Under the pieces are notes generated by a model. That model was not told the DNA's origin, did not search any database, and saw only the letters and a list, made by a program, of their open reading frames with translations. A program made the position numbers and the translations under genes. From Chloroflexota bacterium (GTDB lineage: Bacteria > Chloroflexota > Anaerolineae > Anaerolineales > VGOW01), in assembly GCA_016197225.1 (NCBI GenBank), contig JACPWC010000114.1:1-64000 (forward strand): a DNA stretch of 64,000 bases, given 5' to 3'. Of this stretch, positions 32,575 to 37,362 are shown piece after piece (position 1 is the first letter of the stretch; each line of letters opens with the position of its first letter).

Positions 32575-32647
32575 TGAGCCACAGAGGACTCGAACCTCTA
32601 ACCAAGGGCTTAAAAGGCCCCTGCTCTGCCAATTGAGCTAGTGGCCC
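32575..32647 (-). tRNA. tRNA-Lys (anticodon TTT)
   Basis: A 73-nt cloverleaf on the minus strand. The acceptor stem pairs GGGCCAC (plus-strand 32641-32647) with GTGGCTC, with one G-T pair; discriminator A, no encoded CCA. The D arm is GCTC/GAGC, the anticodon stem GGGGC/GCCCT with loop CTTTTAA and anticodon TTT, and the T loop TTCGAGT. It reads AAA and AAG. A consensus promoter lies upstream and a hairpin terminator 16 nt beyond the 3' end. Its promoter overlaps that of the divergent retron-like RNA. Confidence 0.96.
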
Positions 32648-32660
32648 GAGTGCGTCGCAG

Positions 32661-32699
32661 ATTTTAACACGCTGAACATGCCCCGTCAATGTGTATAAT
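32661..32699. promoter_or_regulatory. Overlapping divergent promoters: tRNA-Lys (minus) and retron-like RNA (plus)
   Basis: On the minus strand, TTGACG (plus positions 32684-32689) and TAAAAT (32661-32666) are 17 nt apart and fit the tRNA. On the plus strand, a perfect TATAAT lies at 32694-32699, 9 nt before the structured RNA; its -35 region (32671-32676) is poor. The two promoters share DNA, so polymerase at the strong tRNA promoter may hinder the other. Confidence 0.75.
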
Positions 32700-32708
32700 A
32701 CGCCAACT

Positions 32709-32825
32709 CGCCGGGCGGCTCTGGTGGAGCCTCAAGGCTCAGGCCGATGTTTCGTCGGCCAGGCGCAACTGCCAGCACAGAAGATAGAGGGTCGGATTGC
32801 ATCCGACTGGCAGAGCCGCCCGGCG
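32709..32825 (+). ncRNA. Structured RNA, candidate retron msr-msd
   Basis: A 117-nt segment closed by a perfect 15-bp helix between its ends: 32709-32723 (CGCCGGGCGGCTCTG) and 32811-32825 (CAGAGCCGCCCGGCG), the arrangement of retron a1/a2 repeats. Inside are four hairpins: GAGCC/GGCTC with loop TCAA (32727-32740); GGCCGA/TCGGCC with loop TGTTTCG (32742-32760); GGCG/TGCC (32762-32773); and, after a 17-nt unpaired stretch, GTCGGAT/ATCCGAC with loop TGC (32791-32807). The GTTTCG loop recalls the msr hairpin of retron Ec86. TATAAT 9 nt upstream would start transcription right at the first arm. The reverse transcriptase begins 9 nt after the second arm. A candidate priming G is 32723 or 32724. The msd part would be unusually short. 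Confidence 0.72.
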
Positions 32826-32833
32826 CCCTTCTT

Positions 32834-33787
32834 ATGAATCTGTTCAAGTCGCTCTTCAACACTGTCTCGGGTGGCCGGTCGCCTGCCGACCTGGCGAAAT
32901 GGCTCGACCTGCCGGAAGCTGAACTGCGCGAGTGGTTGACGAACAAGCCGGCCTGGGCGCGGGGCTACGAATACGCCCGCTTCTCGATCCCCAAACGGCG
33001 CGGCGGCGTTCGCGCCATTGAAGCGCCAAACAAGAAACTCAAAGCTCTGCAAAGGCGAATACTGCGCCGCCTGCTCAACCCGCTCAAGTTTCACCCGGCG
33101 GCCACCGGCTTCGTGCCGGGCCGCTCCATCGTGGACAATGCCCGGCCTCACGCCGGGCGCGGCGTGGTGATCAACATTGACCTCGCCGAGTTCTTTCCCA
33201 CCATCACTGCCGAGCGGGTGACTCAGGTCTTTCGCAGTTTAGGCTGGGGCGCAGAAGCGGCGACGATCTTGACTAACATTTGCGCTTACGAAGGCCGCTT
33301 GCCTCAAGGCGCGCCCACCTCACCGGCCCTCAGCAATCTGATCTGCCGCAAGCTGGACGAAAGATTTTCGGCGCTGGTCAAACGATACAAGGGCCAATAC
33401 ACGCGCTACGCCGACGACATTACCTTCTCATTCCCCGGCCTGGGACGAAACAAACGCCTGCGGCCCAAACCCAAAGGCCGCCCGCCGCTGGCCCGCCCGG
33501 CTCAAGGCGGCCCGGGCCGCACTCTGCTTACCCTCATCAAAACCATCGTCGAAGAAGAAGGCTTTCGCATCCAAATGAAAAAGAAGGTTCGTGTCCAACG
33601 CCCGCACCAGCGGCAGACTGCCACTGGCCTGGTTGTGAACCGCCAGGTGAACCTGCCGCGCACCACCCGCCGCCTGATTCGTGCCATGCAACATCGTCAG
33701 CGCCTGGACCAACTCGACGCCGAAGGACAGAGACGGCTGAAAGGGCTTGAGGCGCTCATGGACATGGTCAGCCGCCAACGTGGATGA
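32834..33787 (+). CDS. Retron-type reverse transcriptase
   Basis: A 317-residue RT started at the ATG at 32834, 9 nt after the structured RNA; the open frame extends upstream through that RNA but the RT domain starts here. Motifs in order: FSIPKRRGGVRAIEAP (50-65), TGFVPGRS (91-98), the retron-specific NAxxH as NARPH (102-106), INIDLAEFFPTI (113-124, first catalytic Asp), RLPQGAPTSPALSNL (155-169), YADD (192-195), and TATGLVVN (262-269), where most retrons have VTG. A Pro/Arg-rich insertion (about 200-228) separates YADD from the next motif. Retron RTs make a branched RNA-DNA from the adjacent RNA and act in phage defence. There is no clear ribosome binding site. The gene overlaps the next by 4 nt (ATGA). 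Confidence 0.9.
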   Translation: MNLFKSLFNTVSGGRSPADLAKWLDLPEAELREWLTNKPAWARGYEYARFSIPKRRGGVRAIEAPNKKLKALQRRILRRLLNPLKFHPAATGFVPGRSIVDNARPHAGRGVVINIDLAEFFPTITAERVTQVFRSLGWGAEAATILTNICAYEGRLPQGAPTSPALSNLICRKLDERFSALVKRYKGQYTRYADDITFSFPGLGRNKRLRPKPKGRPPLARPAQGGPGRTLLTLIKTIVEEEGFRIQMKKKVRVQRPHQRQTATGLVVNRQVNLPRTTRRLIRAMQHRQRLDQLDAEGQRRLKGLEALMDMVSRQRG

Positions 33788-34482
33788 TCGGCGCTCTCTT
33801 CATCTCCCCTCATTTTGACGACGCCGTCTTTTCCTGTGGCGGCCAAATCTACGACCGGGCACGGCGCGGCGAGCGCGTCGTTGTTGCCACCATTTGCGCC
33901 GCGCCGCCGCCTGCCGGTCAGCTTTCTCCCTTCGCCGCCAGCTTGCACGAACGCTGGAGCCAGTCTGGTCTGTTCAACTTTGATCGCGCCGCCGAAGATC
34001 GGGCGGCGCTGGCCGTGCTGGGCGCGACTCCGGTTCACCTCAACTTCCACGATTGCATTTACCGGCGCGCACCTGAAGGCGATTGGCTGTATGACTCTGA
34101 AGCCGCCATCTTTGGCAAGTTGTCGCCCCGCGAGTCGGCGATGGCTGACGAGGTAGCGGCGGCCCTGGCCGCCGTCGGGCCGCTGGCTCCGGGCGCAGAA
34201 ATCTACCTTCCATTTGGAGTCGGCAACCACGTGGATCACCAATTGGCGCGTTTGGCCGCTGAAAGATGGTTGTCCCAAACCGGGCAGAGCTTTCATCATT
34301 ACGCCGATTATCCTTACGCTCAGTCGGTGGCTGGCGGGGCCGAGGTGGCGATCACAGAATCGGCGAAAAAGGCCAAGCTTCAGGCGGTTCGAGCCTATAC
34401 TTCTCAGCTTTCCAGTTTTTGGGCCGACGACGCAAAATTGACGGAATCGGCGGGAAATTGGACTGAACGCCTGTTCGACTGA
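33784..34482 (+). CDS. PIG-L / LmbE-family deacetylase, putative retron partner
   Basis: A 232-residue protein of the PIG-L deacetylase family, zinc enzymes that remove acetyl groups from N-acetylglucosaminyl compounds such as mycothiol or bacillithiol precursors. The metal motif is SPHFDDAVFSCGG (His10, Asp12, Asp13 region), and the third ligand region is FGVGNHVDHQLARLA (about 143-157). The start overlaps the reverse transcriptase stop (ATGA), so the two are translated together; nothing else is between them. No thiol-biosynthesis partner is nearby. It may be the accessory or effector enzyme of the retron-like system, or simply a neighbour carried along. I do not recall this family among known retron effectors. 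Confidence 0.85.
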   Translation: MIGALFISPHFDDAVFSCGGQIYDRARRGERVVVATICAAPPPAGQLSPFAASLHERWSQSGLFNFDRAAEDRAALAVLGATPVHLNFHDCIYRRAPEGDWLYDSEAAIFGKLSPRESAMADEVAAALAAVGPLAPGAEIYLPFGVGNHVDHQLARLAAERWLSQTGQSFHHYADYPYAQSVAGGAEVAITESAKKAKLQAVRAYTSQLSSFWADDAKLTESAGNWTERLFD

Positions 34483-36739: not shown

Positions 36740-37006
36740 ATGACAAACCTTCAACTTCCAGATAACTTAGCAAAGCAGATACGGGAAACGGCTGAAGCGA
36801 TTGGGATAACGATCCCTGATCTGCTTCGCCAACTCATTTCAGATTACCGGCACAAACAGAATCAAGCTTTACCCGCCAGGCAACAAAGTAATGCAACTTC
36901 ACCTATAACCGAGCGTTTGAATGCAATTTATATAAAAGAGACATCGCCGTTGGACATGGCCCTATTCAAAATGCAAACCCTTTCGCTGGGCCGTGAACAA
37001 TGGTGA
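36740..37006 (+). CDS. Antitoxin of a MazF-type pair
   Basis: An 88-residue protein, expected to bind the toxin and repress the operon. The N-terminal 40 residues (LQLPDNLAKQIRETAEAIGI, TIPDLLRQLISDYRHKQ) look like a ribbon-helix-helix DNA-binding unit. The C-terminal half is polar and flexible and ends LDMALFKMQTLSLGREQW, suitable as a toxin-neutralising tail. It overlaps the toxin gene by 7 nt and has a consensus promoter. The GC content is lower than that of lysS and serS, suggesting acquisition. The exact antitoxin family is uncertain. Confidence 0.82.
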   Translation: MTNLQLPDNLAKQIRETAEAIGITIPDLLRQLISDYRHKQNQALPARQQSNATSPITERLNAIYIKETSPLDMALFKMQTLSLGREQW

Positions 37007-37362
37007 TTGAGCAGGGTGACATTTGGTGGGCAGAATTACCAGAACCGGCAGGATCTGAGCCTGGCTACCGACGGCCAGTCATCGTTGTTCAAAGCAATGA
37101 TTTCAATCGGAGTCGTATCCGCACAATTGTTTGTGTAGCACTCACTTCAAATGTAGCGCTGGCGGAAGCGCCAGGCAATGTTTTTATGCCCAGCAGCCTG
37201 ACTGGCTTGCAACGCGATTCTGTTGCGAACGTATCGCAGGTTGTCACTCTTGATCGAGGCTTTCTTACCGAGCGTGTTGGCCAGCTTGACTCCGATTTGC
37301 TGGAAGGAATTTTGGATGGCATAGAACTTGTCATAGGTCGGGGCCAATATTCAGGAGTTTAA
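37000..37362 (+). CDS. MazF/PemK-family endoribonuclease toxin
   Basis: A 120-residue toxin of the MazF/PemK fold: QGDIWWAELPEPAGSEPGYR at the N-terminus, RPVIVVQSNDFNRSRIRTIV (the conserved RPxxVxS element), then ALTSNVALAEAPGNVFMPS, LQRDSVANVSQVVTLDR and a C-terminal helix LLEGILDGIEL. Members cleave mRNA at short sequences in a ribosome-independent way. The Arg after GY and the Ser/Thr of the SQ/T segment, typical of the active site, are present. It is co-translated with the antitoxin. The next element is the serS T-box. Confidence 0.92.
   Translation: MVIEQGDIWWAELPEPAGSEPGYRRPVIVVQSNDFNRSRIRTIVCVALTSNVALAEAPGNVFMPSSLTGLQRDSVANVSQVVTLDRGFLTERVGQLDSDLLEGILDGIELVIGRGQYSGV

Follow-up and report, generated by a model that had tools for sequence, protein, structure and literature searches.

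In described retrons the stem of the reverse-transcribed msd spans 10–50 bp, and the priming guanosine is listed in the contexts UAGC, CAGA, CAGC, GAGC and ACGC (PMC6868368). The typical retron DNA band is 40–180 nt (PMC12548924). In Eco1 (Ec86), whose RT is the nearest solved structure to the protein analysed here (E ~1e-41), the 169-nt RNA follows the plan a1-P2-P3-msd-a2, with a UAGC priming site and a 22-pair msd branch, and a gene for an effector of the St85 family adjoins. Read from the Eco1 locus, P3 is GGATGTTG-UUU-CGGCATCC, i.e., eight pairs closed by a UUU loop; at the border of msr and msd stands UCUGAGUUACUG, which we take to be the point where the Eco1 cDNA ends. The Eco1 RT requires U at loop positions 2 and 3 of P3 and accepts any base at position 1; both the sequence and the structure of P3 matter, whereas changes in the msd stem are tolerated (PMC11754653). 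Systems with no recognisable partner gene beside the RT and the msr-msd are also known, among them Mx162 and the retrons without a clear effector that are noted, from the 2020 classification, in PMC8867640.

Type XIII retrons occur in the same phylum as the locus analysed here (G787, G795 and G959). Their RTs score 441–465 bits with the RT_XIII model and measure ~464–518 aa in the called frame, including a long N-terminal region; SWIM_XIII (425 bits) lies beside the RT of G959, and the other two have a similar gene next to theirs. The type XIII RNAs at L083 and L084 are 142–144 nt long, carry UUAGC (GGUUAGCC) and a hairpin of the CUGCGAUGRUACGUCGCGG type, and close with a last hairpin of 18–19 pairs; at L085, also type XIII, no RNA was found. 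Retron types were assigned throughout with PADLOC models and PMC12548924.

Here we describe a locus within a 64,000-nt stretch of a Chloroflexota contig (hereafter the window) that, in our judgement, most likely encodes a miniature retron, with a predicted DNA of ~31–35 nt and no linked effector.

The RNA element and its conservation

The element lies on the plus strand. Its arms a1 (32709–32723) and a2 (32811–32825) form a perfect 15-bp inverted repeat (15/15) around four hairpins, within the 8–30 bases expected of repeats enclosing a retron RNA upstream of its RT, and the RT ORF begins 8 nt later. Behind a1 follow H1 (32727–32740, 5 bp), H2 GGCCGATGTTTCGTCGGCC (32742–32760, an 8-bp stem capped by the loop UUU at 32750–32752) and H3 (32762–32773), a weak hairpin of 3 bp in shifted register in the window and of 4–6 bp in relatives. 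These would correspond to the one to three msr hairpins of retrons, one of which the RT reads in both sequence and structure, a role for which H2 is the candidate. A mostly unpaired linker, AGCACAGAAGATAGAGG (32774–32790), which contains the conserved motif CNGAAGNT and probably marks the msr/msd border, separates them from H4 (32791–32807), an msd-like hairpin of 7–8 bp with a 3-nt loop. The fold of 32690–32840 has a z-score of −4.9, with no shuffle as low, the bare 115-nt element reaches −7.2, and four homologous RNAs give −4.2 to −6.2. The element at 32709–32825 and its hairpins, first proposed in a sequence-only reading, were thus recovered at the same positions, far beyond chance by these z-scores and by the covariation described below; the 7-nt loop TGTTTCG which that reading gave to H2 was not borne out, as the MFE fold closes the 8-bp stem with three nucleotides, UUU. 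No Rfam family was found at 32709–32825.

The same RNA, 112–115 nt long, is present directly upstream of the RT in three relatives (L003–L005), genomes from another family within the order, whose RTs are 64–68% identical to that of the window, in a comparison that covered the two families. A covariance model (R1) built from these four sequences detected a fifth RNA in a sample of the phylum; it belongs to a genome of another class (G916, E = 1.7e-6) and adjoins an RT 44% identical to the window RT, for which RT_XIII is again the best model. Applied to 400 genomes of the order, R1 found again the four copies already known, plus a single match at chance level (G052, E = 0.09) with no RT nearby. 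All five credible RNAs adjoin an RT, and no credible stand-alone copy was seen in the order and phylum samples of 400 genomes each. The 177 genomes from the class of G916 contained no second member, viral contigs contained no exact H2, and R1 matched none of the RNAs of more distant RTs, apart from one weak match in L041.

In the five-sequence alignment 98% of the cells pair, and 16 of the 36 pairs show changes on both sides, a count that leans towards the model since the alignment was fitted to it; slid structures give 0–1 such pairs and shuffles 5.5 ± 1.8, with none of 500 reaching 16. The picture is unchanged in a MAFFT alignment of the four sequences that made no use of structure, where 10 pairs carry changes on both sides. 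The RNA structure is under selection. Covariation extends to the a1/a2 stem, to H1 (three of five pairs) and above all to H4 (six of seven). The six modelled pairs of H2 are invariant in all five genomes, and the only variation within its consensus, GGCCGATG-YUU-CGTCGGCC, is U or C at the first loop base. The linker motif, CACAGAAGAUAG in the window, appears as UCUGAAGUCAG, GCUGAAGUUAG and UCUGAGAGUCG in relatives.

The hairpins could also be a by-product of coding if 32747–32833 were the true 5' end of the RT gene, with its start in the H2 loop. In four genomes the frame opened by the H2 ATG indeed contains no stop and matches that of the RT (87, 84, 90 and 81 nt; 29, 28, 30 and 27 codons). 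In G916, however, the RNA is kept but is not in phase with the RT (139 nt), whose gene has a GGAGG of its own, and on this ground the coding reading of the extension was rejected. The substitutions, amino-acid-changing ones included, track base pairing, and the N-terminus encoded from 32834 (MNLFKSLF) has a counterpart, M.FF..L, in the RTs of type XIII and of G916. We regard this explanation as extremely unlikely, and the open frame is probably due to chance or gives a minor product.

The downstream edge of the RNA differs among the close relatives. Just past a2, L004 has TTTTTCTTTTC and L003 has TTTTT, a tract that the window does not have; in those two loci the a1/a2 stem could double as an intrinsic terminator setting the ratio of ncRNA to RT mRNA.

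The reverse transcriptase and its affinities

The gene directly 3' of the RNA (32834–33787, plus strand) encodes a retron-type RT of 317 aa (PF00078, 75.9 bits). Together with an RNA plan that covaries in five genomes, this position upholds the retron interpretation with which the sequence-only reading had begun. The motifs NARPH, LPQGAPTSP and YADD are intact, and ATG replaces VTG; the same replacement is seen in four of the five members, while G916 keeps VTG and has HARGH as region X. The set of retron RT motifs (NAxxH in region X, YADD, VTG in region Y) was scored as present. A basic Pro/Arg-rich insertion past YADD (GRNKRLRPKPKGRPPLARPAQGG, ~33440–33530, RT residues ~203–232) occurs in all four close members but not in G916. 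The RT is single-copy in its own genome and absent from the other four genomes of the genus; a scan of contigs with the window RT yielded one remote RT only, in Acidisphaera.

The window RT scores best with RT_XIII (305 bits), followed by the type XI and XII models (273–282 bits) and II-A (243 bits). The lower II-A score, and the lack of a neighbour of the St85-family/NDT effector type at the window locus, set it apart from the type of Eco1, to whose RT it is only ~37% identical. The affinity to type XIII is closer. It comprises the a1/a2 arms, an msr hairpin of the CGATG-NNN-CGTCG type at the same place and a short N-terminal M.NFFRRLF-like peptide. Nevertheless, the type XIII proteins are the longer and higher scoring ones, and their RNAs have the UUAGC and the long last hairpin that the window RNA lacks. 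In the RT tree the window RT groups (0.985) with the RT of G916 and with RTs linked to SPFH genes, apart from the type XIII clade, and tblastn found no SWIM_XIII in the 64-kb window or in L054, L055, L056 and L069. Because SWIM_XIII is missing from these loci and UAGC from the RNA, and the tree group is separate, we treat the element as a retron variant near type XIII and not as a member of it.

The SPFH-linked RTs form a sister clade of small retron-like proteins (309–316 aa where called) encoded directly after an SPFH/Band 7 gene: L098:3458-5079 (G508), L100:6307-8025 (G614), L057 (G570) and L099, on the minus strand (G607). PF01145 was confirmed in two of these loci, SPFH is not in PADLOC, and in G508 the SPFH and RT genes overlap stop to start. 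A 12-bp inverted repeat spanning 162 nt precedes the SPFH gene of G508 by ~70 nt and could be an msr-msd. These RTs possibly belong to a new type of retron whose partner is membrane-associated.

Predicted template, proposed priming site and probable recognition hairpin

RNAs of related RTs, whose enclosing repeats we located ourselves and which we graded as plausible, measure 121–184 nt; their a1/a2 arms are long and end close to the RT, and a CGATGNNNCGTCG-type hairpin occupies the place of H2. The last main hairpin has 10–31 pairs in the thirteen RNAs compared (twelve from relatives and that of Eco1) against 8 in the window. The window RNA had been set against a usual retron length of 150–250 nt; it is short, but the relatives' lengths make this contrast overstated. 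Comparison with the RNAs of related RTs likewise leaves it the shortest, although not an isolated outlier. The window family is the short end of a continuum, ~6 nt below the next shortest RNA overall and with a clearly shorter template. An msd hairpin in the described range of ~10–50 bp was not found; it has 7–8 bp in the window and is similar in all members. From the anatomy, the reverse-transcribed template is predicted to cover 32776–32810 on the plus strand (~35 nt), and up to a2 it amounts to 31–35 nt in all five members, compared with the 162-nt msd in the 241-nt RNA of the long-msd vertical retron Mx162 (PMC6868368). A longer msd fold in homologues, which would have spoken against a short template, was looked for in all five, and the msd-like part is short in each.

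The proposed priming (branching) guanosine is 32724 (plus strand, context CUG-G-U), placed by position as the first base past a1, as in Eco1. The surrounding sequence, CUGGU in four members and UUGGU in G916, is none of the listed contexts, yet the G itself is at the expected place. Since different retrons are known to differ in this motif, we speak of a variant.

The parallel of H2 with the Ec86 msr hairpin, suggested in the sequence-only reading, holds when drawn with the actual Eco1 locus: both hairpins have eight pairs and a UUU loop (YUU in the window family), and the two RNAs follow the same plan, for all the differences in total length, msd branch and priming site. The variable U/C of the family falls on loop position 1, the one that the Eco1 RT tolerates. 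Read from evolution and not from mutagenesis, an H2 that stays invariant while H4 drifts with compensation matches the division of labour seen in Eco1. By this analogy, H2 is the probable RT-recognition hairpin. Because the Eco1 border UCUGAGUUACUG resembles the linker motif of the window, the cDNA is likely to end at that motif.

The small size of H4, the missing UAGC and the lack of an effector would also suit an msr that is still bound by the RT next to a degenerated msd, giving no defined DNA and leaving either a relic or an RNA with another role together with the protein. A relic would hardly preserve six of seven H4 pairs through changes on both sides, nor would it keep YADD and an NAxxH-like motif over two classes, and we consider degeneration improbable. 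A variant RT system working in a non-retron mode was considered as well, in which the unpaired linker serves as a short template and is primed as in some defence-associated RTs. Such a mode would account for a linker motif conserved in sequence, next to an H4 conserved in structure only, and for the non-standard context of the priming G. The RT, however, falls with retron RTs and not with DRT families (Drt2 37.6 bits and Drt3a 21.6 bits, compared with 220–305 bits for retron models, and group II intron far behind), and the a1/a2 arms with an Eco1-like H2 are retron anatomy. This makes templating by the linker more improbable still than a degenerate msd. The miniature retron remains our preferred interpretation.

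Insertion sites, proposed mechanism and significance

Upstream of the element lie a tRNA-Lys gene (32575-32647, minus strand) and a TATAAT −10 box (32694–32699, plus strand); downstream, the start of a PIG-L deacetylase gene (33784–34482, plus strand; PF02585) overlaps the stop of the RT gene as ATGA. In two retron-free genomes of the same genus (G002 and G003) the corresponding empty site consists of the tRNA-Lys gene, the TATAAT box and, ~6 nt further on, the PIG-L ATG, and because of this spacing PIG-L looks leaderless, with the box as its promoter. In the window the box is kept, and the ncRNA with the RT gene (~1.08 kb) lies exactly between the box and the PIG-L ATG. Each of the four close members has a similar box ~10–13 nt before a1. 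An ABC-F gene follows the element in G026 and G069, with the junction TGA-G-ATG, and the empty counterpart in G013, of the same family, is an ABC-F gene without a retron, with TACAAT ~9 nt before its ATG. In G050 the element abuts a third gene, for an unrelated 302-aa protein, again through ATGA. Three sites thus show the same junction style (L054, L055, L056 and the window), and two of them have an empty counterpart; G916 differs, with a longer spacer and a ribosome-binding site of its own. Judging from these three sites only, the element may prefer positions before leaderless genes.

The ATGA overlap could be taken as the mark of an ordinary RT-effector operon, with the PIG-L deacetylase as the effector. 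All five genomes of the genus carry this gene, however, and four of these lack the RT; the close relatives abut the ABC-F ATPase or the unrelated 302-aa protein instead. We give hardly any credence to an effector role of PIG-L, which is probably a host gene; the ABC-F and 302-aa proteins were ruled out as effectors, as the abutting gene differs between sites. No recognisable effector gene was found at the locus in the window or at those of the relatives. Further downstream the window encodes a pair composed of a CopG-like antitoxin (RHH_1) and a MazF/PemK toxin (36740-37362).

The features described above suggest the following course of events. Transcription from the TATAAT box at 32694 would give an RNA starting just before a1. 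After pairing of a1 with a2, the RT translated from the same transcript would bind H2 through its UUU loop, and cDNA synthesis would be primed by the 2'-OH of G32724, starting opposite the bases that directly precede a2. The enzyme would then copy H4 and the linker, from 32810 to ~32776, stopping near the CNGAAG motif before H3. The predicted product is a branched RNA-DNA that stays bound by the RT, its DNA part of ~31–35 nt comprising a 7–8-bp hairpin and a single-stranded tail. The function is the least certain step of this mechanism. The complex of RT, RNA and DNA may act as a sensor whose partner, if any, is encoded elsewhere. Since no effector is linked, the complex might also act alone, or the element might persist simply by lying before needed genes.

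A bolder interpretation is that the element represents a deep, unclassified lineage with the smallest known msDNA (~31–35 nt), working without a linked effector. It would spread by inserting itself seamlessly between the promoter and the start codon of leaderless host genes, with its RNA beginning at the transcription start of the host gene and the RT stop fused to the host start codon. Taken as a whole, this is a tentative and rather doubtful proposition.

The family suggests how short a natural retron template can be at the least: an RNA of ~115 nt with a 7–8-bp msd hairpin, selected across two classes. The contrast between an invariant H2 and a covarying H4 sets the part that the RT has to read apart from the part that it simply copies, and it matches, from a distant lineage, the rule established by mutation of Eco1. 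A compact RNA that could yield a DNA of ~33 nt would be a useful start for producing short single-stranded DNA in cells. The absence of an effector, together with insertion before different leaderless genes, raises the question of how such retrons act and move.
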